Of a DNA stretch of 21,762 bases, positions 2,092 to 19,801 are shown one piece after another (within the stretch, counting starts at the first letter, position 1; each line of letters opens with the position of its first letter). The position numbers were made by a program, and so were the translations under genes. Origin of the DNA: a virus. The notes under the pieces are model-generated. The model had not been told where the DNA came from and made no database searches. It saw only the letters and a program-made list of their open reading frames with translations. The DNA lies in IMG/VR virus record IMGVR_UViG_3300031957_002501, positions 1 through 21,762 of that record; one strand, written 5' to 3'.

Positions 2092-2094
2092 CTT

Positions 2095-5000
2095 TTAATA
2101 TCCGAGATTTGTATTTTGATTTATGTTTTCTTGGGTTCGACCGGCAGCTTCTAGCTCAATATCCACTCTATTGAATGTTGTTCTTGCATAACTAGAGTCC
2201 ACTGATCCTGTAGGCTGTGTGATATACATCGAGGATGCAAAGTATTTTTCAAAATTATTAAATTCGCTTTGATCAACTGCCTTAAGCTCGATTACTGTCT
2301 GATTGAGCGTACTAGGCTGCTCGGGTAGTTCCGGAGCGGTCACTATAGAAATATTGATCAAAGAAGACAAGGGAGCCTGCCTACCTTGATCGCGACCTTG
2401 AATTATCACAAAATTGTTCTCCAATACTCTATTTGGTATATCATACAAGTTGGTCAGGAATTCATCGTTTGAATAAATTTCAACTTTGCAGAGATATTTT
2501 GTATCAGAGCCACGATTTTGATCATCAAGTAAATCGGCTGTTATGTTCTCGTAGACAGGTCGCAAAGATTCATCTTCTAGCCTTACCAATACCTTAGCCT
2601 CACCTAAAGTGGAGTAATTATAATAGTAATACGCTAGGTTGTTGCTATCAAACAATTTTAGATTTTCGTTCTCATCAAACAACACTGTATCGCTGACTGG
2701 TGAGGAGAAACTACCATATTGAAATGGTATATCTTTATTAGCAAGTCTCTCCCTAAGCACTGCGAAAGACAAAGGATTTTTGCCCGGAGCTTCGGTCACA
2801 CTTAGCACTGCTTCTCGGTTTACAACAGAGTTTTGAATCATTTTGGAAAGCGAAAGATCTAACTTAGTGGATATAGTGTCCAGATTCATCAACTTGCTTT
2901 TTTGTTCTAAGTTTTGTACCTCTGCTCGATTGCCTACACTATTATAAGTTCTGGAGCTAATAGCTTCCAAATCTTGATCAACTGATATACCGGAGTCAGA
3001 TAATCCTTCAAGTATTCCAACATATCTGTGGTATTGTGTATCTTTTTGGCCAAGAAGAACTTTTTTTCTTTCCTGCTTCTTTGTAGCAGCATAGTCTAGT
3101 CTAGAAGTATACTTTTGCTGCTTTGTCTTTCTTACCGAATCATCTAGCAATATAGATAAAAACTTTGTGTAATCTTGATTATCTTCAATGGTCTCTAAAT
3201 CTTGTTTCCTAACCCGATAGTCTTTGTCTAGGAATACAGTATATGGTTTGTGATAAGTCAAAAATGTCTCATCCGCTTGTGGACTTGACAGAGATGCGTC
3301 TAGCCTATCAGTGGAAGAAAACTTTCTTCTAGAAACTGCTGGTAGAAATACTGGAGTTTTGAAGTCACTACCTTCGACAGAATAGTTTGGATCATATGAG
3401 TCTACGAATTTTAAGCCTACTGTGTTTTCAAAATTCAAATTCAAAACGTCAGAATTAATTTGGATTTCTATCTTCGACTTTTCTTTTCCTCCGCTAATCG
3501 GCTCTATGGAACGCGATTCAGCTAGTTCATTTAGGAAGCTATAATTTTTTATAAGCTTATTTACAAGCCCTTCGTATGCATTGTATATTTTCTCTAATTC
3601 GTAAAAATTTCCTGTTTCTATGTTCGCAGAAAAATATAGCGATCTCAATAACTGATCAGGAACTACCAAATCAGATAAATTGTAAAAGAACTGTAGTCCT
3701 GCTACCATTGAAGCAAGTTCGTCTATAAAATTACTTATGTCCAATTTTTTCGTCTTTGCTTCTTTTGTGAACATACCGTTACTGTCCCTAAGTGTAGACT
3801 TGCTTAGGATAGAATATATGGTCTTAAATCTATAAAAACTGTTTTGCAAATTCGTAATTTTACTGGATATAAATTCTCTAATGCCGTCTACAAATTGCAT
3901 TCTAAATGTGTAGTAAAATTCTGACTTTCTCAATACTTGCGGTACTTCGTCCACAAAACACAAAACTTTATATTGCGCGAGAGGGTTGCCAAAACTATTC
4001 TGTCCTGCTTCTTCAAAGTATATGTGAGAGGTAACTTTATCGTCGGACGTAAGCTTGCTGCCCGGAATATTTTGATTATATACTTTTGAAGTTTGTGAGC
4101 CGGCCTTGAATGTTGTACTTATTACAGTGTTAGAAACATTTTCACTATTTAGCACCGATACTCTATCAACTTCTATGCTTTCTAGATAAGTTGTACGGTG
4201 GACATATGATTGTTCGTTGTTATCTAAGCGATCATAAAAAGCTGAAAATAAAGAATTTTTCCGCAGCAAGGTTTCCGGGTCTATGAACAACAAGTTACTT
4301 GTGTTCTTTGGTGTTTTGCCCAGTAAGTTTCTTTGCTCTCTCTTGACTATAGAAGATATAACGGGACTAACTCCAGTGCTTTTAGGAACAAAGGCAAGCT
4401 TCTCTGCTGTTTTATTATCTTGTAAAAGCCTTGTTTCTTCAATGAAATTGAAGTTTGGCTCTAGTGAGGCAAAAAGATTATCTATATCAACAACTCTTTT
4501 ATCGTAAACTTTTACAACCTGCGAAAGTTGCGGATGTAAGATCCCATGTTCCTGAGCGGTGTGCTTTAGTCCTTCCATATACACCATGTTACCGCTTTCT
4601 ACTTGCTCATGCTGATGGGTTCCGCCCGCCCAAATAAGATCTTTAGAGTCCAAGAAATAGTAGTTTTCATTAACGACTACATCATCTCTAAGTATTAGCT
4701 GGCCGTTTATTTTCCCATATAATGTATTCTCCGAAGCTAGAGATACCCGAGAGTTATTATTTACAGTCTGAACCGTGGCAAACGTAAAAACAGCCATGTT
4801 ATTACGACGCACTTGCTTTACTTGAATACTGACTTCTTTTGTTGGCTTATAATAGGTAATATTGTTATTTTTAATCTGTTCAACATTTTCTAGCATCTGC
4901 TTAAGATTCAATACTTTATATTCGTATTTTCTATCCGACAGCAAAGATTGTAACTCTTTGAATGTAAAATCACCATTTCTAAGCAAATTAATTTTACTAC

Positions 5001-5307
5001 TTGTGTTAGCGACTATAACGTAAACATTCAAGTTCACGTCTTCTATCAAATTATTATATGTTTTTTCATTCAACATCAAAAATACTTTAGTAGAAACATT
5101 GACTATTCTATCGGACTCTTGTCCTACCAGTTCTTCCTCTTGTTGTAGAATCGAAGTTTCTTGTACTCCGTACTCATTGACAAATAAAGTTCCGGGCAAA
5201 TTGTCCAGCTTAAGTTCATCAATGCTTGGATAACCTAAGGAAACCTCCTCAATATAGCTAGGAGGGATAATTGTGTCTTTTAGTGATGTAAAATTTAGTT
5301 CAGCCAT
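2095..5307 (-). CDS. Large probable virion structural protein of unknown function (1070 aa)
   Basis: An uninterrupted 1070-codon frame in the middle of a tail operon, ending in TAA three bases before the next gene. I do not recognise a named family. Residues 1-200 are mixed alpha/beta. Residues 217-260 form a compact motif with a tryptophan (DLIWAGG) and five histidines at 231, 233, 249, 254 and 258, including YMEGLKHT. From memory, similar W-G-x-H / YM-x-G-x-x-H blocks occur in other phage structural proteins. Residues about 460-600 and 700-830 look mainly helical and charged. The C-terminal 200 residues look beta-rich. No signal peptide, membrane helix or HExxH protease motif is present. 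The ATG sits 16 bases from the nearest Shine-Dalgarno-like AGGA, which is far; an ATT codon four codons upstream is better placed. Position suggests a baseplate or tail-fibre component, which is an inference only. Confidence 0.85.
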   Translation of the reverse strand: MAELNFTSLKDTIIPPSYIEEVSLGYPSIDELKLDNLPGTLFVNEYGVQETSILQQEEELVGQESDRIVNVSTKVFLMLNEKTYNNLIEDVNLNVYVIVANTSSKINLLRNGDFTFKELQSLLSDRKYEYKVLNLKQMLENVEQIKNNNITYYKPTKEVSIQVKQVRRNNMAVFTFATVQTVNNNSRVSLASENTLYGKINGQLILRDDVVVNENYYFLDSKDLIWAGGTHQHEQVESGNMVYMEGLKHTAQEHGILHPQLSQVVKVYDKRVVDIDNLFASLEPNFNFIEETRLLQDNKTAEKLAFVPKSTGVSPVISSIVKREQRNLLGKTPKNTSNLLFIDPETLLRKNSLFSAFYDRLDNNEQSYVHRTTYLESIEVDRVSVLNSENVSNTVISTTFKAGSQTSKVYNQNIPGSKLTSDDKVTSHIYFEEAGQNSFGNPLAQYKVLCFVDEVPQVLRKSEFYYTFRMQFVDGIREFISSKITNLQNSFYRFKTIYSILSKSTLRDSNGMFTKEAKTKKLDISNFIDELASMVAGLQFFYNLSDLVVPDQLLRSLYFSANIETGNFYELEKIYNAYEGLVNKLIKNYSFLNELAESRSIEPISGGKEKSKIEIQINSDVLNLNFENTVGLKFVDSYDPNYSVEGSDFKTPVFLPAVSRRKFSSTDRLDASLSSPQADETFLTYHKPYTVFLDKDYRVRKQDLETIEDNQDYTKFLSILLDDSVRKTKQQKYTSRLDYAATKKQERKKVLLGQKDTQYHRYVGILEGLSDSGISVDQDLEAISSRTYNSVGNRAEVQNLEQKSKLMNLDTISTKLDLSLSKMIQNSVVNREAVLSVTEAPGKNPLSFAVLRERLANKDIPFQYGSFSSPVSDTVLFDENENLKLFDSNNLAYYYYNYSTLGEAKVLVRLEDESLRPVYENITADLLDDQNRGSDTKYLCKVEIYSNDEFLTNLYDIPNRVLENNFVIIQGRDQGRQAPLSSLINISIVTAPELPEQPSTLNQTVIELKAVDQSEFNNFEKYFASSMYITQPTGSVDSSYARTTFNRVDIELEAAGRTQENINQNTNLGY
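4528..4665 (-). other. Histidine/tryptophan cluster in the 1070-residue protein
   Basis: Residues 215-260 of the 1070-residue protein. Five histidines (231, 233, 249, 254, 258) fall within 28 residues, together with W226 and glycines at 228 and 229. The spacing, an HxH pair followed by single histidines, could form a metal site or a tight structural turn. Zinc bound by HxH histidines is known in the T4 short tail fibre gp12. There is no overall resemblance to gp12 here, so the parallel is only suggestive. Confidence 0.4.
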
Positions 5308-5330: not shown

Positions 5331-6350
5331 CTAATCTTTGCATTCTGGTGGAGGATTACCGTCCCCATAAACATTCTCGACAGACAGCCTTTGAACGTCT
5401 GAGTCCGGACATAGTGTTTGCAATGATGCTGGTAAGGCGAAATCTTTAGTTTGCAACTGACCAACAAGACTACATATAAAGTCTTTGGGCATTTCGTTAT
5501 AATCATCTGTGTATACATTGAAGTAGTATTCAACATTATCTGTAGTGACTGGATACTTTGTCAACAAAGCCTCATCATTGTCGCGGTCGATCTTGGAGCG
5601 GTATAAATTGTTATCGTCAACATAAAGATCTTCGATTTGTTTTTTGAAAGTTAGCTTTCTTAATTGCTTGTCTCCAAGATAATTTTCTTCTTCCAAGATC
5701 TCAAAAACTTCAATTTCAAAATCTGCAAAATTAGTGGCCACACCAATTTCTTCCAATAGCATTGTAAGCTGTTCGGTACCGACATAAGGATAGCCACCGT
5801 CAGGGAACTCTATTGAATCATAGGCAATTGTAAGTTCTGGCTCGTCTGTAAAAGTAAATGTTGGGTTAATTGCGCTATCAATCGTTGTTTGAAATTCTAG
5901 ATTTGCATCAATTTGTGGTATTGGCAAACTGTCTCGTTGTGTTCCTGAAGCAGAGGCAGTATAAAAATTATTAAACGACTCTATTTCATTGTCTAACAGA
6001 AACAGTTTTAGTCTTGAGCTTGAGCTTGCAACTGTGTCACATTTCCCTAGCGACTCTCTTTTTGCTATCTCTGTCTCAAAATCTATACCAATAATGTTTA
6101 TGTTTTTTGTTTTCTCATCCAACAAATTAGAAAATCTGTTTTTTTGAACTCTTAGATATGGTGTCTCTCTCTTGATTCTGCCATCAATATCATTTTGTCC
6201 TTCGCTTGCCGTAGTAACAAAGCCGTAGTTTACACCTTCGTCAGAGAAAGAGTAATAGATGGGTTTGAATTTTCCTTTAGAAAGAAGGTCTTCACCATAG
6301 TTGGTAAGTTTTAGTTCAAGAATATTTTCTTTTTGGTTGAAGAAAGTCAT
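5331..6350 (-). CDS. Conserved-type phage virion protein of unknown function (339 aa)
   Basis: A complete frame whose ATG shares one base with the stop of the giant upstream gene (TAATG), with GGAG ten bases before the ATG. The two genes are therefore translationally coupled. The N-terminus (MTFFNQKENILELKLTNYGE, then LLSKGKFKPIYYSFSDE, about residues 1-38) matches, from memory, a block common in proteins of unknown function encoded among tail genes of marine and T4-like phages: a hydrophobic strand, an L-T-x-Y-G turn and a GKF-x-P-x-YY strand. The following ETPYLR fits the same pattern. Residues 85-330 are acidic and probably beta-rich. The tail contains cysteines and a proline-rich end. Its length is close to that of T4 gp8 (334 residues), but I see no sequence resemblance to it. 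A small baseplate or tail-tip component is likely; the function is unknown. Confidence 0.85.
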   Translation of the reverse strand: MTFFNQKENILELKLTNYGEDLLSKGKFKPIYYSFSDEGVNYGFVTTASEGQNDIDGRIKRETPYLRVQKNRFSNLLDEKTKNINIIGIDFETEIAKRESLGKCDTVASSSSRLKLFLLDNEIESFNNFYTASASGTQRDSLPIPQIDANLEFQTTIDSAINPTFTFTDEPELTIAYDSIEFPDGGYPYVGTEQLTMLLEEIGVATNFADFEIEVFEILEEENYLGDKQLRKLTFKKQIEDLYVDDNNLYRSKIDRDNDEALLTKYPVTTDNVEYYFNVYTDDYNEMPKDFICSLVGQLQTKDFALPASLQTLCPDSDVQRLSVENVYGDGNPPPECKD

Positions 6351-9300
6351 TACTCATTTTCTCCATTATTAGGAATAGATAGGCCCAAACCCTCAAGAGT
6401 CCCAACAAGATCGGCTACGGCTGCATCTGTATCGCGTACACCAGCAACGCCCACTTGAATAGTTCCAGCCGGAAGCATGTCTACCCCTATATCAAGCTTA
6501 CCCATCTCAACTAAGCTGAAATGGTCGTAAGGCCAGTTATAACCAAAATATTTTTGCCCCTCATTAGTTGGCACCTCTTTGCCGAGAATGTCTCTCTCAT
6601 AATTTGTCTTTGCTTTTTGCTTGACCTTGAAAACCATCCATTGAATATCTTCTGGTAGCTCAATAGAGTCACGGTTTAGTGGTCTACTAAGCAATTCTGG
6701 TCCGCGCAAGTTATGAGTAATCGTTTGCTCAACTTCTTCAATTACTTGACCAGATGGAGGAGTAAGATTCTGCCAAATATAACTTAAGTCATTTTCATCA
6801 AATGTGTGCTCAAACTCAAAGATATAAGCACTATAGGGCTGAACTTCGTCTGAATAGTTGATAAAGTCGAGATATGGTGGGAAATGATAACGCTTCATTT
6901 TTTGAATCTGAAGGCCAATGCTGTTCAGACCAGCCGATGGCGTGCTATCGTCTATAGTGTCGATTAGCGTGGCTACTTCTGCTATATTGCCAGCGCCCGT
7001 GTCTTCAGAAGCAAGAGGGAACAATTGTTTCACGCCTTCAATATTTCTAAATGGAATTGCTACGATAGCTTCGCGGACAACCATTTCCTTCTTTAGTTTT
7101 CCTAGCTTGACCGGATCCTCTGAGAAACCGCAGACTTTTGAGAGTGGTATGAAGTCTTTCGGAGAAATTTGTTCAGTGCTATCGCCAAATGCTCTAATTG
7201 TATAGGCGTTACCAGCGCCGGTAGCTCCAATGCCATTTGAATCACGGCCTGTACCGATGACTCCGTTAGGATGATTTTCATACCATTCAGCAGGAATTGT
7301 CTCAACCTTGAGATAAACCCCTTCATTCTCTTTTGGTATTCTACCAAACTGATGCCACATGCCCCGTGGAACAGAAGCCGAAAGTTCACCGTTAGGCTGA
7401 GTCACTGAGCTATAGTCTGCAAGGTGATTAAAGTTTAGCATTGGAGTCTCAAACTTGAGTTCAATAGACCACTGGGCTTGATCGCCCTCTCCAACAACTT
7501 CAAAAGCATTAATGCTGGCTGAAAGTTGCATGGCGTTTGAATTTAGATTACCGTCACGAGCGGGCAAGTCGGTACCCGGATTGGTTCCAGCCTCCTTGTC
7601 AAATCTCCAATAGTTCACAAATAAACCATCTTGCCTATCTTCAAAAGACGTGGATGCGTTAGAATTTGGGAAAGTAAACAAGAACTGATTTTGCTGTGCA
7701 TTGGCGGCATCGTCCTTGAGAACGGGCCTGTATGGCGTTCTAGAAGAGTTCCCTGCTGCACCGCTAACACTGGTGTTTGTTGGTACATAAATAACATCTA
7801 TCCACGCTTCTCCATCATAATATGGAGGAGTAAATGGCAAGTTATAGCCATTTAGCGAATCAAATGCCCCAGAAAATACAGTTGTTGCTTCGCCAGAGTC
7901 TTCGACGCCAATTGTTGGCGGGCCAAAAGCAGATGGTCTCGAATACATTGTTAGTGTTGGTCTTGAGAAGCTTCTCTGCTCTTCTGCTGGTGTGAAAGAG
8001 CCAGTTCCGATTCTTGCTTTAGAATCATCGGTTTGTGTAGTAATATCTTCGGTAATGGAACCAAGCAACGTGTTGCTAACGAAGAAGAAGTTATCCAAGC
8101 CATTATCGGTATTTGCTGGTGTTGCGCTATTAGATACTGCTATGCTAATATTACTTTCAAATACTCTGGAGGTCACTTCTACTACAACAAACTCTTCGTA
8201 AAGCCCGCTAGTTGCACAACCGGGGGCAGCAATACCGGGAATATCTGCGTAGTCAATGGTCGTATCAAACTGTCGAACACTGTAGTTTGGATGCAAGCTT
8301 AATACGGAAACAAGATTTGCGGCAACAGTTTGATAGTTTACATCTGCTGGATTTCCAAGCGGGAAGCCTGTAAAATCCGTATTGAACTTGAAATCATTTC
8401 CTGCTGCATCATATTCAGTATCTTGTTCTGCACTACTATTATCTTCCGAAAGGCCAGTAACAGTCCAAGAGCCTGCTGTAGCCCCTGATAGCGTGAACGA
8501 TGCAGTAAAGTTGGAATTCCAGTTAGAGTCTGCACCGTTTACATAACAATCTATCTCTCCTGCGAACTGAGGATTTGAGCCGGCAACGAGACCCTTGTTA
8601 AGATAAATATATGCAACTGGTGCTGTTCCTGCTTCTTCGATGATTTGAGGCACGGGGTAGTTGCCATAGCTGCCAGAGTTAAACTTCGGCTTATCGAGAG
8701 ATCTATACATTTTGATTCTCATGCCGTATGCTTTACCCGGAGTTACTTCTTTGAAATCTGCCTGTCTGCCGGAAAGAATTCTAGTTGTTCTCTCGCCTTC
8801 CAAGAAAAACCCGACCGACTCTGCCAAATAGTTATTCATCATGTAGATATATAAATTATTTTGCCCAGTAATAGAAATTTCGTTTCTTAGCTTAGTGGCT
8901 ACACCGTTGATTCTAGTAAACTGTGTGTCATCGTTGTCTACAATAACTTTACCATTTAGCAAAGAAGGATTATATAGTGCTTCAAAGGGTATTCTCTCAT
9001 CAAAACTGCTTGAATATGAGGCTACTCGATTGAGGAAAACGCCCTCTGAAGATTTAGAGCTTTTGTTTATTCCGTTAGACAATGGCCTCGTGGCTCTGCT
9101 GTAGCTGTCATTAAAAATAGGATAATCAACTGCCATACCAGACTTAATTGAATTGTAGAGAAGCCCCGGTGCAAACAAGGTTTGCATTATTGGTCGAAGC
9201 TGATTCGTATCGCTGACTTCCTCTGTTGCAAAGTCTGCGGGTACGGTGAATGAATTATCGCCATAGGTATTAAAGAACTGTTCTGCCACTTGAACAGATC

Positions 9301-12300
9301 TTTCAGAAGGAAAGAAGCCATTGTAAGGCAAGAACTTTTTAATACCTCTAAACTTGAGCGTCAATGAACCCGGCTCTAGGCCATTATCTTCTGCTCCATC
9401 TCTTACTTCTTCAAAGTGTTTCATTAGATCACTGTGAGAATAGATTTTGAAAAAGTCTTGCTGCGAAGAATTCTGCGGAAGACTGCGGAGCAGTGGTCTA
9501 TTCACTTCAGAAGAAGGATTTCCTTGCTTAATCTTAAAGTTTTCGTTGAATGAATCAGGGTCAAAAACATTTATATTCTCTAGATCTAAGCCCACAAAAT
9601 CAGATGAAATATACTCTGGAATAATCGAAAGATCTTTTCTTTTTGTTTTGACATCTAAGTTATAGACATCATATGTATCATCAAAAGGTTTTGCCGACTT
9701 AGTAATGAATGAGGTTACATTATTTGAAGAAGTAAATATACCTGCTTGTGTACCTGCTTCCCATTTCGCAAAACCAGAACCAATAAGTGAATAAATTGTA
9801 TTTGTTGCTCCACCTAAACTTGGCTCGAATGAACTGATTTTTATTCCGCCATCGAGAACCAAATCCATTCCATGTGGGGAAACAACAGAACGCACCTCTT
9901 GCATAAAGTGATTTCTTGCATAAGTGGGCTGAACATTTAGAGTTAGCGCGGAACCTGTCTGCGGTACGCCGGTCGAAGGTACCGGATTATACTTGTTGTA
10001 TGTTGTAAAGTTTTGCAGGATGCCCGAATTTCGAGTATTGTTAGGATTAGCAAAAGTATTTGCTCCGGGTGTGCTAACGCCCGAAGTACGATCATCGCGG
10101 GATCTAAAATTAGCAAGCTCAAAACGCCTAAACACGTCAAGATCCCACACTGACCTCAGGTAAAAGGCGTTATCGTCACGGACACCAAATGGCTTCCTCT
10201 TTGGGCCATCGTCGCTTCGATTCTGAGCGTCGTCTCTCCAGAAGTTACTAACGAAACCAACTCTTTCACGAACTTTTTCAAGATATGAGTTTTCTTCCGA
10301 AGGCCACACTGTTTCTCTATATTTGATACTATTGAGTGTAAATGTGTTGTCTTCCGCAAATGTTCCAAGCATATTATCAAAAGCAGAATCATTTTCTCCC
10401 TCAACGAGATCGTATCCCTTGTTGATAATATCTTGTGAGAAATATAGCTTTTGATTACCGTTTTCTACATTTAAGATGTATTCTTTGTTTCCAATACTTG
10501 TTCTTACTTCTACCGGATCGTATCGACATGAAACAACCGATTGAGTGGTTACCGAGGTTGCTTCTTCAATAATCGTTCTGGATACTGGGAGTGGATCAAA
10601 TACAGTTTTTACGGTCGTACTTGGGTAAGCAAACAAGTTATTATTTTTTAAATAACGACTTACTCTGCTCTCGCCTACCCTTACCTGTTTGAATGAGGCA
10701 TAGCCATAAGGGCCATTAGTATTAAGAATAAAATCATTCACCAACACGCTTGAGGTGGATGGGAATGTAACTGTTAGTGTATTTTCATCTACTGTTGGAA
10801 CTGCCGTCTTCAGGTCATCAGATACAACATACAGGTTAGCTCCAACAAACGAAAGTGAGGAGTTGCGGTCAGACCCAGATGTAAATACTATTTCACTTAC
10901 CAAGCCAGCGGAGGTGGACACCTCACCAGTTGGAGTCTGATAACCTAGAATGTAGTTTGATTCGTAAGACGAAGTAATCCACGCATAACGAAGTTCGGTA
11001 CCGGGCAGGGAAGTAACAACATAGTAGTTATCATATAGTGTCTTGGTTGTATCTGACGCACCAGACCCTGTGGCGAAGTCATCAGCAGAACCGGAGTAGC
11101 GAACCAAGCGGCCTGCTCTCTGTGTCTTATGAAAACTTGGAACACCCACGCCGAACACTGACGAAGTTCCAAGATAGTTGGCTGAAATTACATTTGACGG
11201 ATTATAAAGAGAAGAGCCATTATTATTTTGGTCACTGCTAAATCCACCCGTCACAGCGTGATTGACCAAGAAAATATTATTTAGTGGCAGCCTTGAAACC
11301 AAGTTTCTGTAGTTCATATGACTATAGGGACTCAACTCAGCCGCCTCATAGTCAAGACCTACGCCACCTTGGTTGTCGCCTGCGGTGAGAGGATCGCCGG
11401 GTGCCGAGAAGCGGTTGACAATAATTTGCTTTCTTGCTGGTCTTGTTGGTTTTGTGTAATCCACAACGTCCGTAACAAAAGTGGAAGTAATGCTACCTGT
11501 CCCAAAGCCCTCTGCCTTGACAAAATCTGGGTTGTTTGCACTCCGACCATTAAGTTGCATCAATTCGTATTCTTCAACATAGTTGCCGTAAGTCTGTGAG
11601 CCTGAACTGTACTTAATGTTACGAATGTTTAGAGGGCGCTTAGCACCTTCGTCTCGTGTCCAAGGAGCATATGGTAGATTAGCATCTACTGAAGTCATAG
11701 CATCGTTATCAGTCTGAGGGGGGCCAAGGAATATTCTTTGTAAAGATCCGTTGAAGCCGATCTTGTAGCCTTCGGGACGTTCGGTTGTTGCCGAACTTGT
11801 ATTGAGATCGTTGTGGCGATATTGTAAACCACCAACATGTGTTTCGGTAAATACACCCTGCATTGGAATTTCATTAGTCAAGCCGTAGTCTAAATGAATG
11901 TTACCAATGTTAATCAAGTTGTTTACGGTCAGCGCATCGTTGTATCCTGCTAAGGATGGACTCTTGTATGAGGCACTGAGAATGTTTCCGGGGAATACGA
12001 TTTCAACATTGTCTTTGACAAAGTTTGAGACTTCTGGACCGAGATCGCCTTCAAAAGATTCAATATCAAATAGGCGTTTTCTCTTATCGTCTAATTCTTC
12101 GTCGTCTTTGATAGTAAGAGTTTCTGTGAAGTCAGAGCGAATACGAACATCAGAGTCAGCATCAGCAAACTTACTTACAATACTACGAAGAAGGCCAATA
12201 TCTTTTCTTACAGTGCTATTGAGTCCACCAAAGATTGTTCTATCTTGTTCTATCTTGACAGAAACATTTTCCATTATTTGATTGTTCTGTGAGTCTTGCT

Positions 12301-15300
12301 TGAAGTAAGAAGCGCCGGCTGATGTAAAGTTCTTTCTATACTCTCGCAGGTTTCTGTTCTGATGAATAAGCTTAACTGCTGCGATGTCTTCGTTGACGTC
12401 TTGATCGCCACTACCTACAGAGCCAGTTCTTTCTGCTCTCTGCTTCCACCAAACAGCATTATTGCTCTGATCGGTTGCGTCTGAAATAGGGGCATGGCCA
12501 AACTTCCAGTTGTAATCAAGATCATTGATGCCCTGTAGTGTAGCGCCAAATGTATTTGTGTCCTCAATTACTTGCTGAAATTGTGGATAAGGAGTTAGAA
12601 CCTTGTCTCTTTCAAGAATATGGTTTTCAATAATATCTTGCATTCCAAAACGCAAGTTAGCAGTTTCTGGAACTAGCTGCAAGATAAAGTTATATACACT
12701 ATCATCGAACCATTTATAGTAGTCATAAAACTGATTGAAGTCTTTTACACTCTGAACTCTTTGGAAGAATAGAGTCCGCAGGTTATCTAAATTGTTGTAT
12801 TCTTCTCGGTACAGAGCACCGGCTTCGCCAATGATGTTGTTGAACTCAGTTATATTACCAATGAAGTCAATCATTTCGCGAGAGAACGCGCCAGCAAAAG
12901 ACTTCTCTAGGGAGTAGTAAAGAGTCTCAGGACTAAAATCTCTCTTGAATACCTCATCATCAGAAGTGAGAACCTTTACAAGATCAGAAGAATTCACCTG
13001 TTCTGGGAACTGAATGTCTGAGCCTATAATATTCTTGTTATCTACAAAAGCTGTGCTGCTCGCAGGGAACCCAAAGCCCTTGAACTCGTATTGAGTGGCG
13101 AACTCTGCACCGTAAGGGGAATCGTAATTGTTACGAATATCTTCGTCTGCCGATGTAGACCCTGATGCAAAGTCAACGGCCAAGAACTCACCAGAAGAAT
13201 CTGAGCCTGTTACTGTCTGGAAGTCCACGTTGAACAAGATAGTGCTTACTTCGGGGATGTATGAGCCGGTTGCAGTGCCTGCACTAAATAAGGAGAAGTT
13301 CTTTGTGGCCCTTGATGTGCCGAAAATATTACGGTCCTTAGCGTGGGCCTCTATGGCCTCCTGTGAAAGGACAACATTATCGTAATGTCTGATATGCCCA
13401 ATCTCCACATCTGTCTGAGTCAGAACAGTTCCGGAGAAGTTTGTTCTATCAGCGCCCGCAAAATAGGTCTTAGGAGTTGTGAGCATAAGTTCTGCGCGAG
13501 CAGTGATGAGCGATCCAGAAACACTAAAGCTATCGTTTACTATATCACCTTCAGTGTTGTAGCCGGTTAAGGATATAAAATAATTTGGAGCCGATCCAAA
13601 AACACCTGCGCCATAGTCTTGCTGGTCATTATAAACAGAGACAGCAAATGTCCATTCATTGCCTGTATAAACTTCTTTATAAAGACTTGAGTTGCAATAT
13701 ACAGTACCGTTAGCATTCTTGATGGCAAAGTAAGCGTCTCTTGATGCCTCGAATGGTCTAACAGCTATTAGTTGGAAGCTGTTGTCGGTGGTGCTAAAGT
13801 CGTATGAACCAGTATTATCAAGTAGATGGAAACCAAAAACAGAAGAGGTCAGAAAGGATCTACTGTAATAACCGGGCTCGTCAGGCTCACGAGATCTAGG
13901 GAAAAATACGTTTACCTCAGCCGAAAATGAACTAGAAGCATCCTGTGCTCCTGTGATATAGAATTCTCCTCTAGCGTTGGCATTTGAAGAGGCAGTTTGG
14001 AATATGGTTGCGCTAGTTAGCGACGAACTATCAAAAGAAATATACTTCTTTGGCTCCAAATTGTTCTCAAAACGATCTTCTATTGTGTAACTTCTATTTG
14101 ATGAATATCCCTTGAGATCTACTATCTGGTTAGAAACTCCAATAGTTCTTAAGAAGTTTCTTACTGATTTCTCTGTGCCCTTTGACTTAAGTATGGTTAC
14201 GGCGTTATTATAAATATTAGTGTAAATTTGATTCTTTACATCGGTAAGATCTTGCTCATAAATCTTTGTGTCGCCACGATTACGAACAAATTCAAGTAAA
14301 CTTTCATTTACAAAAAGCTCATCAGTATCAAGGCCGATAGATTGTAGCACTATGTCCATGACAGGATATGCTTTGTAGTTGACTGCCGTATCCACTGTGG
14401 CAGGCTGGCCGTAGTTGTTTTGCTTTACTTTATTTATCTCTTGTATTTGTAGGTACATTTCATCAAATGTGTTTGCCACAATTTGAATTGTTTTCTTTAG
14501 ATTTTCATTACCGTCACCATCAATTACGAAATTTGGGAACGTATTGTATAGAAGAGATGAGTTTTGCGAATCGTAAAGGGACCCACTTTCAATTAGGCCA
14601 TTTAGAGTTGAAATATAGTCAGGGTTTTGCTGATAAACTACAGGGTCTCTATATTCTATAGGAGCAACACCTGCAAGAACCATGGCAGATCCTGTTTCTC
14701 GTGCATTTGAGCCGGGATAACCTACCCAGTTACCGTTTGATATGCGGCCTGAATAGTCAAGCACTACAGAGTCGATAGAGTTGACCAATGTTTTGCCTTC
14801 ATTGAACTTATAGTAGGCACCTAGTTCTGTGTTGGCAATATCGTTATTGGTGCCGCCATATACATTGGTTATGTAATACTTTGCAATATTTTCTGTTGTT
14901 CTTTCTGCCTTCCAGTATCTAAATTCATCAAGTGAAGCGGAAAGCTTACCAGCGCCTGCGGATGCGCTTGTTCCGGATGGTGCTGTGATCAATGCCCCAA
15001 TTCTAGCTTTTAGCCCACCAGTTACGTGATTCAAATTAAGCGCAGAAGTAGTTGTATTTTTTAGAACACCGTCTAAATAAACTTTAATCCTGTCGTCTCC
15101 GTCTGAGGGGTTCTTAATAGAAATCGCGTAATGATGCCAATTTCCATCCGCTAGACTAGAGGTGGTTTGTCCTGTATTCAAGACTACGTTCTGGAATCCT
15201 GTAGAACCAGAGATTAGGTTCATTCTAAAAGGTTCTGATCCGTCTGCTGTTCCGCTAACAAACAGAGTCAGTCTTCCATATGAGTCACTTGTATCAGCTT

Positions 15301-15967
15301 CGCCATTCCAAAGATCAAATATAACTTCTTTTTCAGTGGAAGAAGTAATGAACTCTGATTTATTCATCCAGAATTCTATTGTTACTCCGCGCTCGTAATC
15401 CATCAAAAAGTTATCGGTTCTTGTGCCCTGTCTTCCAAGATCAGATAAGCCTAGAGTATCGTATATGTTTTCATCATACTTATTAGAGCCACTGAAAGTT
15501 TGTGCTAGAGGCTTGCCTATCATACCACCAGAAGCAGTATTCATGGTACCAACAATTGAAATATACTCTTGATTTGCTGGTAGGCCGTAGCCATCGACTA
15601 TAGATGACTGTGATCCCCACCCGTCAGAAGAAAATACTGCGTAGCCATTTTGCCGTGGGTAAAGGTTCTCGAAAATATAAAGGTCTATATAAGATGACGA
15701 GTTTAGAAATTCTGTTTGTTCTGCCTCAGAGCCATCGTATGGATATTGATTGACAATGTTTTCCATCGCACTTTGATAGTAAAGCTCCGCAGAACCAAAC
15801 TTAGCAAAGTTTGAAGCAGTAGAAAAATCAATTCTTGGAATAAGTCGCTTCTTGAGTTCCACCTTAGATTTAAGGTTTCTTACGGACTCAATATCGTTAA
15901 AGTTTTCCTCAAGATTAGTGTCCTGTATGACCTTCTTCGGCCCGAACAGATCTCTTGCTTTTGGCAT
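6350..15967 (-). CDS. Giant baseplate/tail adhesin-like protein with two LamG-type domains (3205 aa)
   Basis: A single uninterrupted frame of 3205 codons. The ATG follows a strong AGAGGG ribosome site by five bases. Domains seen: residues about 188-370, a concanavalin-like/LamG domain (GVTIEFWM, DGNWHHYAISIK, IKVYLDGV, LDEFRYWKAERT); about 475-620, helical, with KSKGTEKSVRNFLRTIGV, like the KGT motif of P2 gpI; about 635-882, a second, more divergent LamG-like domain (FSAEVNVFF, NEWTFAVSVYN, VEIGHIRHYDNVVLSQEAIE); about 1017-1130, aromatic-rich helices; then long beta-rich stretches; about 2440-2660, a possible inserted beta domain; C-terminal 3040-3160 with DLSYIWQNL and WMVFKVKQKAKTNY. From memory, the last 2000 residues resemble giant unannotated proteins of uncultured marine phages. 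It follows gp25- and gp6-type genes, where a gp7/gpI subunit is expected. I infer a wedge-attached peripheral baseplate protein that binds host glycans or other tail parts. No hydrolase motif was found. Confidence 0.85.
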   Translation of the reverse strand: MPKARDLFGPKKVIQDTNLEENFNDIESVRNLKSKVELKKRLIPRIDFSTASNFAKFGSAELYYQSAMENIVNQYPYDGSEAEQTEFLNSSSYIDLYIFENLYPRQNGYAVFSSDGWGSQSSIVDGYGLPANQEYISIVGTMNTASGGMIGKPLAQTFSGSNKYDENIYDTLGLSDLGRQGTRTDNFLMDYERGVTIEFWMNKSEFITSSTEKEVIFDLWNGEADTSDSYGRLTLFVSGTADGSEPFRMNLISGSTGFQNVVLNTGQTTSSLADGNWHHYAISIKNPSDGDDRIKVYLDGVLKNTTTSALNLNHVTGGLKARIGALITAPSGTSASAGAGKLSASLDEFRYWKAERTTENIAKYYITNVYGGTNNDIANTELGAYYKFNEGKTLVNSIDSVVLDYSGRISNGNWVGYPGSNARETGSAMVLAGVAPIEYRDPVVYQQNPDYISTLNGLIESGSLYDSQNSSLLYNTFPNFVIDGDGNENLKKTIQIVANTFDEMYLQIQEINKVKQNNYGQPATVDTAVNYKAYPVMDIVLQSIGLDTDELFVNESLLEFVRNRGDTKIYEQDLTDVKNQIYTNIYNNAVTILKSKGTEKSVRNFLRTIGVSNQIVDLKGYSSNRSYTIEDRFENNLEPKKYISFDSSSLTSATIFQTASSNANARGEFYITGAQDASSSFSAEVNVFFPRSREPDEPGYYSRSFLTSSVFGFHLLDNTGSYDFSTTDNSFQLIAVRPFEASRDAYFAIKNANGTVYCNSSLYKEVYTGNEWTFAVSVYNDQQDYGAGVFGSAPNYFISLTGYNTEGDIVNDSFSVSGSLITARAELMLTTPKTYFAGADRTNFSGTVLTQTDVEIGHIRHYDNVVLSQEAIEAHAKDRNIFGTSRATKNFSLFSAGTATGSYIPEVSTILFNVDFQTVTGSDSSGEFLAVDFASGSTSADEDIRNNYDSPYGAEFATQYEFKGFGFPASSTAFVDNKNIIGSDIQFPEQVNSSDLVKVLTSDDEVFKRDFSPETLYYSLEKSFAGAFSREMIDFIGNITEFNNIIGEAGALYREEYNNLDNLRTLFFQRVQSVKDFNQFYDYYKWFDDSVYNFILQLVPETANLRFGMQDIIENHILERDKVLTPYPQFQQVIEDTNTFGATLQGINDLDYNWKFGHAPISDATDQSNNAVWWKQRAERTGSVGSGDQDVNEDIAAVKLIHQNRNLREYRKNFTSAGASYFKQDSQNNQIMENVSVKIEQDRTIFGGLNSTVRKDIGLLRSIVSKFADADSDVRIRSDFTETLTIKDDEELDDKRKRLFDIESFEGDLGPEVSNFVKDNVEIVFPGNILSASYKSPSLAGYNDALTVNNLINIGNIHLDYGLTNEIPMQGVFTETHVGGLQYRHNDLNTSSATTERPEGYKIGFNGSLQRIFLGPPQTDNDAMTSVDANLPYAPWTRDEGAKRPLNIRNIKYSSGSQTYGNYVEEYELMQLNGRSANNPDFVKAEGFGTGSITSTFVTDVVDYTKPTRPARKQIIVNRFSAPGDPLTAGDNQGGVGLDYEAAELSPYSHMNYRNLVSRLPLNNIFLVNHAVTGGFSSDQNNNGSSLYNPSNVISANYLGTSSVFGVGVPSFHKTQRAGRLVRYSGSADDFATGSGASDTTKTLYDNYYVVTSLPGTELRYAWITSSYESNYILGYQTPTGEVSTSAGLVSEIVFTSGSDRNSSLSFVGANLYVVSDDLKTAVPTVDENTLTVTFPSTSSVLVNDFILNTNGPYGYASFKQVRVGESRVSRYLKNNNLFAYPSTTVKTVFDPLPVSRTIIEEATSVTTQSVVSCRYDPVEVRTSIGNKEYILNVENGNQKLYFSQDIINKGYDLVEGENDSAFDNMLGTFAEDNTFTLNSIKYRETVWPSEENSYLEKVRERVGFVSNFWRDDAQNRSDDGPKRKPFGVRDDNAFYLRSVWDLDVFRRFELANFRSRDDRTSGVSTPGANTFANPNNTRNSGILQNFTTYNKYNPVPSTGVPQTGSALTLNVQPTYARNHFMQEVRSVVSPHGMDLVLDGGIKISSFEPSLGGATNTIYSLIGSGFAKWEAGTQAGIFTSSNNVTSFITKSAKPFDDTYDVYNLDVKTKRKDLSIIPEYISSDFVGLDLENINVFDPDSFNENFKIKQGNPSSEVNRPLLRSLPQNSSQQDFFKIYSHSDLMKHFEEVRDGAEDNGLEPGSLTLKFRGIKKFLPYNGFFPSERSVQVAEQFFNTYGDNSFTVPADFATEEVSDTNQLRPIMQTLFAPGLLYNSIKSGMAVDYPIFNDSYSRATRPLSNGINKSSKSSEGVFLNRVASYSSSFDERIPFEALYNPSLLNGKVIVDNDDTQFTRINGVATKLRNEISITGQNNLYIYMMNNYLAESVGFFLEGERTTRILSGRQADFKEVTPGKAYGMRIKMYRSLDKPKFNSGSYGNYPVPQIIEEAGTAPVAYIYLNKGLVAGSNPQFAGEIDCYVNGADSNWNSNFTASFTLSGATAGSWTVTGLSEDNSSAEQDTEYDAAGNDFKFNTDFTGFPLGNPADVNYQTVAANLVSVLSLHPNYSVRQFDTTIDYADIPGIAAPGCATSGLYEEFVVVEVTSRVFESNISIAVSNSATPANTDNGLDNFFFVSNTLLGSITEDITTQTDDSKARIGTGSFTPAEEQRSFSRPTLTMYSRPSAFGPPTIGVEDSGEATTVFSGAFDSLNGYNLPFTPPYYDGEAWIDVIYVPTNTSVSGAAGNSSRTPYRPVLKDDAANAQQNQFLFTFPNSNASTSFEDRQDGLFVNYWRFDKEAGTNPGTDLPARDGNLNSNAMQLSASINAFEVVGEGDQAQWSIELKFETPMLNFNHLADYSSVTQPNGELSASVPRGMWHQFGRIPKENEGVYLKVETIPAEWYENHPNGVIGTGRDSNGIGATGAGNAYTIRAFGDSTEQISPKDFIPLSKVCGFSEDPVKLGKLKKEMVVREAIVAIPFRNIEGVKQLFPLASEDTGAGNIAEVATLIDTIDDSTPSAGLNSIGLQIQKMKRYHFPPYLDFINYSDEVQPYSAYIFEFEHTFDENDLSYIWQNLTPPSGQVIEEVEQTITHNLRGPELLSRPLNRDSIELPEDIQWMVFKVKQKAKTNYERDILGKEVPTNEGQKYFGYNWPYDHFSLVEMGKLDIGVDMLPAGTIQVGVAGVRDTDAAVADLVGTLEGLGLSIPNNGENE
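8020..8650 (-). other. Possible inserted beta domain in the giant protein
   Basis: Residues about 2440-2650 of the giant protein. The flanks (AYGMRIKMYRSLD before, FSRPTLTMYSRPSAFGPP after) look like neighbouring strands of one fold. The stretch between differs in character: it is rich in Ser, Thr, Asn and Ala, with a helix-like VNYQTVAANLVSVLSL followed by strands EFVVVEV and NISIAVSNSA. This order of helix, strand and an Asn-rich final strand is similar to the insertion in the 670-residue protein. The boundaries are estimates. Confidence 0.35.
13322..14065 (-). other. Second concanavalin-like (LamG-type) domain of the giant protein
   Basis: Residues about 635-882 of the giant protein. The marks are an early strand FSAEVNVFF (the position of the usual T-x-E-x-W strand), NEWTFAVSVYN (the position of W-H-x-x-A/V), a strand pair around YFISLTGYN, and the closing block VEIGHIRHYDNVVLSQEAIEAH, which matches the typical end of LamG domains (a strand with R, then L-S-x-x-E-I). 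It is more divergent than the first copy, and the usual W-H-H is replaced by W-T-F. Confidence 0.65.
14110..14545 (-). other. gpI-like helical segment between the two LamG domains
   Basis: Residues about 475-620 of the giant protein. It is mainly helical, with a long amphipathic stretch (KKTIQIVANTFDEMYLQIQE) and ending in TILKSKGTEKSVRNFLRTIG, then a short beta strand. In the P2 gpI tail-protein family a helix of the type H-R-x-KGT-x-x-A-I-x-x-x-L-x-x-x-G is followed by a strand. The KGT, the spacing to the leucine and the final glycine agree. This is a motif-level match only. Confidence 0.4.
14858..15406 (-). other. First concanavalin-like (LamG-type) domain of the giant protein
   Basis: Residues about 188-370 of the giant protein. 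The order of motifs is classic for this jelly-roll family: GVTIEFWM (opening strand), a strand around LTLFVSG, DGNWHHYAISIK (the W-H-H-x-A/V block), IKVYLDGV (the V-Y-x-D-G block), a strand ending ARIGA, and LDEFRYWKAERT (closing strand). Such domains in phage tails usually bind carbohydrates or protein partners rather than cut them. Confidence 0.85.
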
Positions 15968-15986: not shown

Positions 15987-17999
15987 TTACTCTGTCTGAC
16001 GTTTTTCTACTCTAAATTTGAACACTTCTGACTGAACATCCCATTTGCCGGTATACTCGTTATAGTGGCAAAGTTGAATGCCGTAGCCGTAATCGGGCTC
16101 CAACATTCCGATGTCTAGTTCAAAATAATTACCTCTTTGATCATAATTTAACAAGGTTTCAAGATCAGAGCCAGTACCAAATGGAATTATTTTTAAATTA
16201 TCTTGTAAACGGAATATAGAAAAACTTGAACTTGGAATAATTGTTGTCTCTGGTCTCGCATTCGCTACAGTATAAATAGTTGGAGACCAATTTCTTGGGC
16301 GAGTATAAACTCTAAATTGTGCTGTTTCGTCAGGTTCGTAAACAGGCTTGAGATTTGTGATATTGTTTAGGTATCTCTCAGTGAACTCATCGGAAGATGC
16401 ACCGAATGTAAGTGGCTCAATAGTTCCTGTTGTAAATTGCGTGGTCAAATTGCCATTGTGCCAAACATCGTGCAAATACTCTAACGGAGTTGCGGCTGCC
16501 GTGATAGCAAATGTGGCCTTATAAATACCTGTTGAAACATGTGAACCTGTTACGATAGTCTCGTTTCCGCTTATAACATTTGTTCCATCTGCAACAAGTG
16601 TAAGTGCGCTGCCTGTTGGAGTTGTTGAGGAACCAGAGAATACAGAAACATAAATTGATCCTGTACCGATTGATGGAATATTTACTAATCTTCCACGAAT
16701 TCTGTTGTAAAGATATACGGTGTTTAGGTTATCCGCAGCGGGAGCAAGTGAACTTGAATAATAGAACTGCCCTCTGTCGTCAAATACAGTTGGAGCGAAG
16801 CGTGCTTCAATAACAGGACGCTTGAAAAAGAACTCTGAAGAGCGGGCAAAGAACTTCTTAGTGTAATATGAACGGCTTGTGGAGTCTTCCTCTGAAGAGG
16901 TCAAGAATACTCCAAGGCCATAGTTTGGAAGCGTATTTGCCCCGTCAAAGAATTGTATAGTAGTTGTTCCAACTAAGTGTTGGGATCCTGCGCCGGGATA
17001 ACGTACATAGGAATCAGATGTTACACCAGATTCTTTATAGAATACGAACTTGCTTAGCCAAGTATTTGCTTGCGAAGAAGTAAAAGGTGTATCGTTAATG
17101 CCTACAATAGTTGTATTTCCGGCAGTACCACCGACTTCTTGCTCAACTTTGATCAATCTTCCATTTGATTCTATGTCTGTTACAACAGAAGCCGTTATGC
17201 CTAGAGTGCTGACTGACGGGTCATTTATAGCAGCGACAAACTGGGCTGCTACCTGTGCTGTCGTTGAAAGTCCGCTGATACCGACAGTTCCGCTTACAGT
17301 TGATGTTGAACTATCATTTGGCTTGAACCTTACAATTTCTCCAAGAGTTCCAGTCAAAGTCAGACTTGGATTTGCTTGACCTGTACCGTATTGTGAGGCA
17401 GAATCTCCTGAAAGATAAATGTATACTTTTGCTGCGCCAATACCAACATCAAGATACTTAAGTTGCCTCTCAACAATTTCTGTTACATCAACTTCAAGAT
17501 CTTCTGTTCCTGCGTCAAAGAATTGACTAGCTGTTGGATCGGATGAGCCTGTATAATAATCACCGCCCTGATTTGCCCAAGTGTTCCCTTCACTAGCAAA
17601 AATCCAGTTTGAGACCCCAGCATCAGAGTAGTTTTCCATATCAAGACCGACACCTTCAGTCCAAGAGCGAGATATAGGCGCAACTACAAGATTGAACTGC
17701 TTTGGAAGAGTTTGCCCGTGCTTAGCATTGAATAGTTTATAGTAAAAACTTACAGATCCGGAAGCAGGAATATCGCCGGCAGCGCGAGAAGACGAAATCT
17801 CAGTAACCTGAAACTCTGTGATCACTCTTGACTTCTCTGTTGTGAGGCCAGATGAAGAGCTTGCCTGCCCATAGATAGAAAAGACTTCAAGAATGTCGGC
17901 AGCGCCCATGTTAGAGCCTGTGCCGCGTGTGGTTAAATTAGCCTCAAAAGCATTTGTAATGGTATTATCTTTATTGGCGTAATATCTTTTGATACCCAT
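15987..17999 (-). CDS. Beta-rich phage tail/baseplate structural protein with DNRLRE-like fold and an inserted domain (670 aa)
   Basis: A complete 670-codon frame whose ATG shares one base with the stop of the gp6-type gene (TAATG), with AAAGGA eleven bases upstream. Residues 1-60 (MGIKRYYANKDNTITNAFEA, then GSNMGAADILEVFSIYGQ) match from memory a block frequent in tail proteins of uncultured marine myoviruses. Residues about 35-210 look like a DNRLRE-type beta sandwich: the partner strand RVITEFQV, SGSVSFYYKLFNA, LVVAPISRSWTEG and DVTEIVERQL. Residues about 212-308 seem to be a separate inserted domain. About 312-410 returns to the main fold (FYKESG, SYYTKKFFARSSEFFFKRPVIEARF). About 430-530 looks Ig-like. 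The C-terminal 130 residues are beta-rich (FRVYTRPRNWSPTIY). No catalytic motif is seen. Placed between gp6 and the giant protein, it is probably a baseplate-periphery component. The exact role is unknown. Confidence 0.85.
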   Translation of the reverse strand: MGIKRYYANKDNTITNAFEANLTTRGTGSNMGAADILEVFSIYGQASSSSGLTTEKSRVITEFQVTEISSSRAAGDIPASGSVSFYYKLFNAKHGQTLPKQFNLVVAPISRSWTEGVGLDMENYSDAGVSNWIFASEGNTWANQGGDYYTGSSDPTASQFFDAGTEDLEVDVTEIVERQLKYLDVGIGAAKVYIYLSGDSASQYGTGQANPSLTLTGTLGEIVRFKPNDSSTSTVSGTVGISGLSTTAQVAAQFVAAINDPSVSTLGITASVVTDIESNGRLIKVEQEVGGTAGNTTIVGINDTPFTSSQANTWLSKFVFYKESGVTSDSYVRYPGAGSQHLVGTTTIQFFDGANTLPNYGLGVFLTSSEEDSTSRSYYTKKFFARSSEFFFKRPVIEARFAPTVFDDRGQFYYSSSLAPAADNLNTVYLYNRIRGRLVNIPSIGTGSIYVSVFSGSSTTPTGSALTLVADGTNVISGNETIVTGSHVSTGIYKATFAITAAATPLEYLHDVWHNGNLTTQFTTGTIEPLTFGASSDEFTERYLNNITNLKPVYEPDETAQFRVYTRPRNWSPTIYTVANARPETTIIPSSSFSIFRLQDNLKIIPFGTGSDLETLLNYDQRGNYFELDIGMLEPDYGYGIQLCHYNEYTGKWDVQSEVFKFRVEKRQTE
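17076..17366 (-). other. Small inserted domain within the 670-residue protein
   Basis: Residues about 212-308 of the 670-residue protein: a strand SLTLTGTLGEIVRFKP, a helix TTAQVAAQFVAAIND, a strand ITASVVTD, a strand LIKVEQEVGGTAGNTTIVG. This pattern (strand, A-x-x-F/L-V-x-A-I-N helix, ITA strand, then x-x-G-T-A-G-N-T-T-I) is one I know from many phage tail and capsid-surface proteins as a mobile small beta domain. The strands on either side, YIYLSG before and KFVFYKESG after, read as one continuous fold with the domain removed. Confidence 0.6.
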
Positions 18000-19801
18000 T
18001 ATTTAATCATTCCTTTAATATCAGTGGTAAATTTTACCTGAAAAGAAACATTTTCTGGTGGGATAATCTTGCGACCATCAGTGGTAGTATATCTGGCTAA
18101 GTTAATATAGTTGTCGTTATAGTCGGTTCCTGTTTTATTTGTAAACTTGACTTCTGAAATATCGGCTACACCATCTACTTCATTCAGCACAGTATAAATG
18201 TCAAGTATACTTATCGGTTCTCCAATAAATGTTGGCCTTGAATAAAAGTTTTGTATTGCCGTTAGAGAAGCCTCTAGCACTTCAAAAGAGTTATACGGCT
18301 CTAAAACACTAATACAAAAATCAATCCCAATATTGACAATCACACCATTTTGTATGTCTACAGAGTCGCCGATCATTCTATAGCGATTAATCCAATTTTT
18401 AATATTACTTTTTGTCTGCGTATTTGGAGCTTCTAGGTTTCCATTTTGATCGACGGAAAGGACATAAAGATTTATATTTCTATTATTTGCATCAGCGTCT
18501 CTTATCGCTCTGGCTCGTGAGATATTGCCAAACTGCGAAGGCAGTAAGTAACACAAAGCTTCATAATCCTGTGCTGTAACTGCTCTCTTTTGAGCAGCAA
18601 AGCCATTTGCAGCCAATTCTTTGAGTTCATCCAGATCTGGTACGGCGTTAGAAACAGTGATTGGCTCTTCATTGAAGCATTCCAAAGAGCCTTCGACATC
18701 TAATCTTTCTTGCTCAGTGGTTAGCTCAGGAGAGTTAAAGTCCAGAATTACATCTGAAAGTCCTGTTATCGTCCCAACCGCTGCGTTTGAGCTATTACCC
18801 GTATTTCTTCTATATCTTATCGTAAGTGTTGTGTTTTCTGGGGCTATACCGAACACATTATTACTCAATAAGTTTTTAGGATCAAATGTGACATCTGTTA
18901 TATAAGATCTTGCAAATTGCTGTATTGCTACATTTGTTGGGTCTGGAATTCTATTATCATCTACTGTGTTCTCAGAACCATGCCCAAATGTAAGTGTAGT
19001 ATCCTGTAAAGTCTTTTGAGTGACAAATCTTCTCGGTACCGGGGTAGGCACTAAAAGGGAAGGTGTTTGTTCTCTAGTCGAAGGATCCGTATTGATCATT
19101 TCTTTATATACAACTTCTTCAGAAAGATTTTCAACTTCAAAATATTCATTACCGTCTGTGTCTATTACAGATATAATTTCTGTTACATTTTGATCTTGTA
19201 TCACAACTTTTTTGAACTTCTGGAATTCTCCAACATCTATCTCAGTGGTTATAAATTCGCCAGAAATTACTTCTGCTGTGGCTTTGATCGCAAAAGAGGT
19301 AACAATACCAGTGGCTGCATCTCTGCGAGCGGCCACAACCTCCAATGTTGGGTCATCAAACCGAACATCTTTCGTAGTGATGAAAGAAGCACCCTGCGTG
19401 GATGTTAGAGTGGTGTTTCTTTTCAAAATAGGAAGTAGATTTCTATTAGGGCCTTCACCGCTAGTTACTGCCGGAACAACTACATAAATATCTACTTTCC
19501 CTGATGCAGTAGGCGAGCCTTTGAATTTGTATCCAATTTGCTCCGCTAAAGCAAGTGCATTATCATAGTCGTTAGAAGTGGCTAAAAGCGACTCATTAAA
19601 CTGATAGTCCATGTAAAAGGATAGTACGTCACCAGTGTAAGCAACTGTATCTAGGAGCAAAGAGCCAAAACTGGCCTCTGTGAAGTCCCTAAAAGTATCA
19701 GGATAATATCTTTTAGCATATGCGGTAATATTTTGCTTCAAACTATTGAAGTCTTTACCAGTATAGTCAACGGATACAAATTTTTTATTATAGTTTTTCA
19801 T
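17999..19801 (-). CDS. Baseplate wedge protein, T4 gp6 / P2 J type (600 aa)
   Basis: A complete 600-codon frame with GAGAAG three bases before the ATG, 22 bases after the gp25-type gene. In contractile tails two copies of this protein per wedge, with gp25/W and gp7/I, form the ring around the hub that triggers sheath contraction. The N-terminus shows the gp6 signature: D-F-x-x-L-K-x-N (residues 17-24), then F-G-S-L-L-L-D-T-V-A-Y (45-55) and L-A-E-Q-I-G-Y (85-91). The middle has the J-family block KRAVTAQDYEAL (405-416), then strands ending in GVIVNIGIDFCIS (486-498), and a C-terminal half with an EPISILDIYTVLNEVDGV region (528-545). The length is close to that of T4 gp6 (660 residues). The neighbour order gp25-gp6 supports the call. 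Family assignment is secure from motifs; detailed partners are inferred. Confidence 0.9.
   Translation of the reverse strand: MKNYNKKFVSVDYTGKDFNSLKQNITAYAKRYYPDTFRDFTEASFGSLLLDTVAYTGDVLSFYMDYQFNESLLATSNDYDNALALAEQIGYKFKGSPTASGKVDIYVVVPAVTSGEGPNRNLLPILKRNTTLTSTQGASFITTKDVRFDDPTLEVVAARRDAATGIVTSFAIKATAEVISGEFITTEIDVGEFQKFKKVVIQDQNVTEIISVIDTDGNEYFEVENLSEEVVYKEMINTDPSTREQTPSLLVPTPVPRRFVTQKTLQDTTLTFGHGSENTVDDNRIPDPTNVAIQQFARSYITDVTFDPKNLLSNNVFGIAPENTTLTIRYRRNTGNSSNAAVGTITGLSDVILDFNSPELTTEQERLDVEGSLECFNEEPITVSNAVPDLDELKELAANGFAAQKRAVTAQDYEALCYLLPSQFGNISRARAIRDADANNRNINLYVLSVDQNGNLEAPNTQTKSNIKNWINRYRMIGDSVDIQNGVIVNIGIDFCISVLEPYNSFEVLEASLTAIQNFYSRPTFIGEPISILDIYTVLNEVDGVADISEVKFTNKTGTDYNDNYINLARYTTTDGRKIIPPENVSFQVKFTTDIKGMIK

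Follow-up and report, generated by a model that had tools for sequence, protein, structure and literature searches.

A 3,205-residue protein of a marine virus of bacteria is probably a gp7-type baseplate wedge subunit carrying two lectin-type domains and a long arm

The stretch of DNA analyzed here (the window) is a 21.8-kb fragment of a viral record that encodes two subunits of the inner baseplate wedge, which raises the question of what supplies the third. The gene of a gp25-type sheath initiator/wedge protein (positions 19824 to 20207, 127 amino acids; all features given here are on the minus strand) matches Pfam GPW_gp25 (E = 1.4e-11) and PHROG 261 (E = 1.6e-19). It is followed by the gene of a gp6/J-type wedge protein (17999 to 19801, 600 amino acids), which matches PHROG 219, “baseplate wedge subunit” (E = 2.7e-20), and, by tblastn, the baseplate wedge genes of phage immuto (1e-72) and S-PM2 (gp6, 2e-5). 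Next come a gene that we call D (15987 to 17999, 670 amino acids) and the gene of a giant protein of 3,205 amino acids (6350 to 15967), which starts with ATG and has a Shine-Dalgarno-like GAGGG just upstream. The preliminary description had noted gp25 and gp6 genes with no normal-sized gp7 or gpI gene after them, and this holds within the window. We conclude that the giant protein is itself probably the third inner-wedge subunit, of the T4 gp7/P2 gpI type, in which a scaffold is extended by two LamG insertions and an arm of about 2,000 residues.

Relatives that cover this stretch have gene D at the same position. Since its homologue in Microcystis phage Mel-JY01 is weakly CBM96-like (E = 5.5e-5, below the cut-off), gene D may encode a further carbohydrate-binding baseplate protein. 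After the giant gene lie three more large genes of 339, 1,070, and at least 697 amino acids (5331 to 6350 and 1 to 5307). No family match was found for these three, and genes of comparable size also occur downstream in relatives.

Because the window is merely a fragment, the absence of a gp7 gene inside it proves nothing, and 16 large or complete relatives were used for this purpose instead. A scan of IMG/VR with the giant protein returned ten loci, and a profile scan with its segment around a conserved KGT motif returned more than 500 stretches, with 80 loci read. Across about 90 relatives, the order gp25, gp6, D, KGT protein was observed wherever the contigs reach that far, with gene D intervening throughout the clade. 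In these relatives, gene D mostly encodes 370 to 850 amino acids, and the KGT proteins range from 897 to more than 4,000 amino acids, with the motif mostly at residues 550 to 640 and usually near 590. Exactly one KGT module was present in each of the 16 large or complete records (106 to 484 kb), which include the complete immuto and Mel-JY01 genomes. A separate gp7 or gpI gene, named in the preliminary description as one of two findings that would speak against its proposal, was not found in the 16 records with the Tail_P2_I and T4 gp7 profiles. All Tail_P2_I matches in the virus records searched were weak and lay inside the giant or KGT protein, and the T4 gp7 profile, run without a positive control, gave no match in the 16 records.

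Two observations on these collections concern the contigs themselves. The only relatives found in the GTDB genome set (L353 and L354) come from MAGs of Candidatus Poseidoniales and of Maricaulis; both are short contigs and may be phage DNA that was binned there by chance. In a 172.9-kb contig of the clade (L008), numerous short frames replace the giant gene and its neighbors. Reassigning stop codons does not restore the genes, and scattered sequencing frameshifts are the likely cause.

The architecture of the first 1,145 residues was explored with an AlphaFold model built from 52 sequences, with the row of the 484-kb uncultured phage LR756508 left out (pLDDT of 76, pTM of 0.58). The model shows, in order, N-terminal helices, a β region at about residues 195 to 425, helices at 449 to 468 and 489 to 514, the KGT helices at 574 to 608, a second β region at 616 to 1020, and helices at 1024 to 1098. 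Around the KGT motif, short helices at 537 to 543 and 557 to 562 are also predicted, with the KGT helices themselves at 574 to 594 and 599 to 608. Four of these parts make up a conserved scaffold. The N-terminal helices (residues 47 to 102, positions 15662 to 15829) carry the motif NFAKFGSAE and match the compact homologues described below with a profile E value of 9e-4, compared with about 0.7 for two control tiles. The helix pair at residues 449 to 514 (14426 to 14623) is a candidate core-bundle helix-turn-helix. The KGT helix region (residues 574 to 610, 14138 to 14248) ends in KSKGTEKSVRNFLRTIG. The third scaffold block (residues 1024 to 1122, 12602 to 12898) is helical and, in the family, ends in LVPxSA...ESHxLERNK. 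It matches the compact homologues with a profile probability of 97% (E = 2e-10), but profile comparison with gpI and gp7 gave no match for it, which counts against gp7 identity.

Between the scaffold parts lie the first LamG/concanavalin-like domain (residues 195 to 425, 14693 to 15385) and a second LamG-type β domain (residues 616 to 1020, 12908 to 14122), the latter separating the KGT helix from the third block. Foldseek searches with the model of residues 1 to 1145 returned LamG, neurexin, and pentraxin folds (E = 4e-7 to 1e-4), and the two-domain structures of laminin LG4-5 and neurexin L2-L3 gave alignments of about 690 to 750 columns. LamG folds, some of them receptor-binding domains in unrelated proteins, dominate the search with the full model, which shows the lectin fold only. 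In Pfam, no LamG family reaches an E value of 1 in the window protein itself. Laminin_G_3 matches were obtained for 10 of the 14 relatives searched, the best at E = 1.1e-35; in relative L005, the match covers residues 177 to 351 (E = 5.2e-11). The two LamG domains proposed in the preliminary description are thus borne out by structure comparison and by Pfam matches in relatives. A 3,683-residue relative (L119, 8708 to 19756) has extra LamG matches in its arm, at residues 1790 to 1944 and 2126 to 2205, and one relative in alignment A5 has a reelin subrepeat match (E = 1.6e-10).

Compact homologues occupy the same gene place in three phage genomes, Flavobacterium phage immuto (1,265 amino acids), Mel-JY01 (1,336), and LR756508 (1,400), where they are annotated as hypothetical or not annotated. 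The compact homologues carry the N-terminal motif, the helix pair, the KGT segment, and the third block. The distance from the N-terminal motif to the helix pair is about 100 residues in immuto versus about 380 in the giant protein, and that from the KGT helix to the third block is about 110 versus about 430. The compact homologues thus have the scaffold blocks in common with the giant protein (E = 2e-10 for the third block). The immuto protein (immuto 161) has neither of the LamG insertions and no long arm; LR756508 lacks the first insertion and has one of about 430 amino acids at the second site. These comparisons indicate that, relative to the compact homologues, the two lectin-type domains have been inserted into a scaffold that all of these proteins share.

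The remainder of the protein is a C-terminal arm of variable length (residues 1145 to 3205, 6353 to 12535), for which no family match was found in Pfam or PHROGs. Conserved positions continue along it to a C-terminal NWPYD motif. Residues 2450 to 2650, approximately (8018 to 8620), are an insertion of the window lineage, with a gap fraction of 0.84 to 1.0 over residues 2451 to 2650 in nearly all distant relatives. The protein is encoded by a single gene in about 51 of 71 loci and by two adjacent genes in about 20 (a hand count of loci that were not dereplicated). In window residues, the split points fall at about 890 to 904, 1190 to 1325, 1560 to 1640, 1670 to 1740, and 1925 to 2000 (split loci include L121, L169, L123, L004, L131, L165, L170, L173, L176, L179, and L190). 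The two genes are separated by short gaps or overlap, and a Shine-Dalgarno-like sequence precedes several of the second genes. The wedge-bearing part forms a gene of its own in L121 and L169, ending near residue 1230. Since the arm is encoded separately in many relatives, a single chain is common but not required, and the single-chain baseplate arm of the preliminary description does not stand as a necessity.

The split genes could be read as traces of a fusion, in which a gp7-type subunit, up to about residue 1200, was joined to one or more outer baseplate proteins that replace T4 gp8/gp10-like parts, instead of one continuous arm. This alternative is compatible with the wedge assignment for residues 430 to 640 and differs on the arm. 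It draws on the natural splits at several residues and on the Shine-Dalgarno-like sequences before second genes; yet splits at several places leave no single old gene boundary, most loci keep one chain, and the arm is without similarity to any known baseplate family. We regard the fusion as tenable, although on balance doubtful.

The identity of the wedge-bearing part with gp7 or gpI was assessed through the KGT helix. Within KSKGTEKSVRNFLRTIG, which spans residues 594 to 610, K594, K596, and G597 vary little or not at all among 52 to 74 relatives. To provide an empirical control, hhalign was used to rank 53 tiles, drawn from the families that these loci encode, against each profile. With the P2 gpI profile, both KGT tiles came first (E = 0.006 and 0.012, next tile 0.08), and the same was observed with the cyanophage gp7 profile (E = 2e-5 and 6e-5, next tile 0.02). 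The near-invariance of the three residues and the first rank with P2 gpI indicate that the likeness is more than chance. The helical segment with a P2 gpI-like KGT helix that had been described from the sequence is thus confirmed, in a region predicted to be helical. As for other candidates, the gpI and cyanophage gp7 profiles ranked no other tile of the cluster higher than the KGT tiles, and comparisons of the segment with gp25, gp6, and gene D were at chance level, which gives no support to any of these as the gp7 equivalent.

Tail_P2_I (PF09684) matches the window at a single place, residues 587 to 628 or so, with 14.2 bits (E = 3.3e-4). This is below the curated cut-off of 20.6 bits, so that the giant protein is not in the Pfam family, which counts against gp7/gpI identity. 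Single-sequence Pfam searches do not discriminate here: the unrelated family GPAT_C hits just as many members (7 of 74), and its E value is better, which also weighs against the assignment. When the family segment was compared with eight diverse gpI proteins using hhalign, the KGT helix was aligned with E values of 7e-4 (13 sequences) and 2e-3 (93 sequences). Against cyanophage gp7 N termini, E values of 2e-5 to 8e-5 were obtained, with probabilities of 62 to 77% over 33 to about 95 columns, a significant similarity that is moderate rather than overwhelming.

Compared directly with T4 gp7, the family segment matches only weakly (E = 0.004 to 0.02), and the KGT tile is second or third of 53 by score. 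The N-terminal tile W1-250 came first with a thin, four-sequence T4 gp7 profile and not with a deeper one, and was rejected as the T4 gp7 counterpart. As a yardstick, the accepted counterparts gpI and T4 gp7 reach only E = 0.83 by the same hhalign method, whereas cyanophage gp7 matches T4 gp7, through its N terminus, with E values of 2.7e-11 to 4.6e-13 and probabilities of 97 to 98% (S-MbCM7, S-PM2, and S-SSM6a; L193, L103, and L102). It is therefore the cyanophage proteins that connect the window with T4 gp7, and profile similarity supports a chain from the window family to cyanophage gp7 and on to T4 gp7. The profile-profile comparison suggested in the preliminary description thus favors its proposal where gpI and cyanophage gp7 are concerned; directly against T4 gp7 the match is weak, and for Tail_P2_I it falls short of the cut-off.

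Other searches were less informative. When the PDB was searched by sequence with the profiles A1 and A6 of the segment, the results were Mdm2, WDR48, and IcmE/DotG, all rejected as chance matches, the last without any stretch that passes alone. From viral contigs scanned with P2 gpI, only near-identical P2 copies were retained. An AlphaFold model of residues 433 to 636 alone was of low confidence (pLDDT of 64.5, pTM of 0.33), and a fold search with it retrieved nothing in the PDB and only noise among viral proteins.

The individually weak profile scores against gpI and T4 gp7, together with a KGT segment that does not fold confidently alone, leave some room for convergence, in which case the giant protein would be a peripheral adhesin or fiber-like protein and an unrecognized gene elsewhere would encode the third wedge subunit. 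This is improbable, as the place of the KGT protein behind gp6 is constant with one module per genome, the 16 records, two complete isolate genomes among them, hold no other Tail_P2_I or gp7 match, and the cyanophage gp7 profile puts the KGT segment first by a wide margin. It is more improbable still that the giant protein descends from gp7 but has left the inner wedge for the periphery. Its contact with gp6 is putative, which favors this reading, but the KGT helix region is among its most conserved parts, which fits a buried wedge role. The proposal that the giant protein supplies the third wedge part is thus supported, for residues 430 to 640 approximately, by synteny, the KGT motif, the profile ranking, the single module per genome, and the lack of an alternative gene.

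As a gp7-type subunit, the giant protein most likely has a wedge position that rests on homology, and the bundle and signaling steps that follow are inferred. The conserved scaffold comprises the FGSAE helices, the helix pair at 449 to 514, the KGT helix at 574 to 610, and the helical block at 1024 to 1122. It would pair with two copies of gp6 under gp25 to make the inner wedge, presumably through a (gp6)2-gp7 bundle. The lectin folds and the arm may point outward and touch the host surface, where they could bind host glycans or anchor fibers, as reported for other gp7-type proteins. Binding would then tilt the wedge and release the sheath, provided that the signal passes to the wedge. Continuity of the chain would not be needed for this, since many relatives split it. 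A more speculative and rather unlikely extension is that, in this clade, the subunit responsible for triggering sheath contraction also acts as the first sensor of the host, the lectin folds in its scaffold coupling glycan binding to the gp6 bundle. If so, glycan binding and the gp6 bundle would be linked within one polypeptide, without a separate fiber as a lever.

Overall, one of the three core baseplate parts of this marine virus of bacteria appears to be a 3,205-residue protein with two sugar-binding-type domains and a long arm. Recurrent giant “hypothetical” proteins of marine phages could thereby be explained as modified gp7-type wedge subunits, whose scaffold gained lectin-type domains and an arm, which can be encoded apart, and yet kept its place. 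The cultured phages immuto and Mel-JY01 open the wedge role to direct testing.

Among known systems, a solved counterpart of gp7 is gp17 of phage XM1 (242 amino acids). The wedge there comprises two copies of gp16 and one of gp17 and contains a core bundle made of helix-turn-helix motifs from the N termini; the spikes are held by gp17 (PMC10457771). AlgoCIS Alg12, Pvc12, and Afp12 resemble the giant protein in having a gp7-type module that is extended laterally, with fiber attachment, a likeness drawn from their published description; they differ in that the module is fused to a gp6-like part. The gp7-like part of Alg12 is lateral, meets the tail fibers, and was called a hotspot of re-engineering (PMC8894135). 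In P2 gpI (176 amino acids), the KGT helix aligns in register with that of the giant protein (E = 7e-4 to 6e-3), and the gene follows the J/gp6 gene, whereas the giant protein is about 18 times larger and below the Tail_P2_I cut-off. T4 gp7 (1,032 amino acids) and its Tevenvirinae relatives likewise are encoded after gp6 and have the helix, FYSTKGIEASYKFLF, or FYSSKGTEASYKFLF in Aeh1. T4 gp7 is three times shorter than the giant protein, has other N- and C-terminal additions, and gives a weak direct profile match.

Another close likeness is to the gp7/“VrlC” proteins of cyanophages S-PM2 (3,048 amino acids), S-SSM6a (3,007), S-8S53 (3,891), S-RSM4 (3,515), and S-MbCM7 (3,533). There too, a giant protein with an FY-x-x-KGT helix comes directly after gp6, and in S-PM2 gp25 lies just before gp6. 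The S-SSM7 and S-8S53 copies are annotated as baseplate wedge initiator (in S-SSM7, gp7) and that of S-MbCM7 as VrlC. According to a study of pelagimyophages and cyanomyophages (PMC7029224), these phages lack T4 gp7, which “appears to be substituted” by the protein VrlC. Our comparison suggests that VrlC looks like a divergent gp7, because the S-MbCM7 copy is part of the cyanophage profile that matches T4 gp7. The cyanophages differ from the window in having no gene D between gp6 and gp7, and the NWPYD motif is absent from S-SSM6a and S-PM2, the two checked. Moreover, their KGT helix is near residue 200 instead of residue 594, which leaves no room for the LamG-bearing N-terminal 430 residues. 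Giant gp7-type proteins after gp6 are thus already known from cyanophages, and what is new in the window is an elaborated version of them rather than a new machine.
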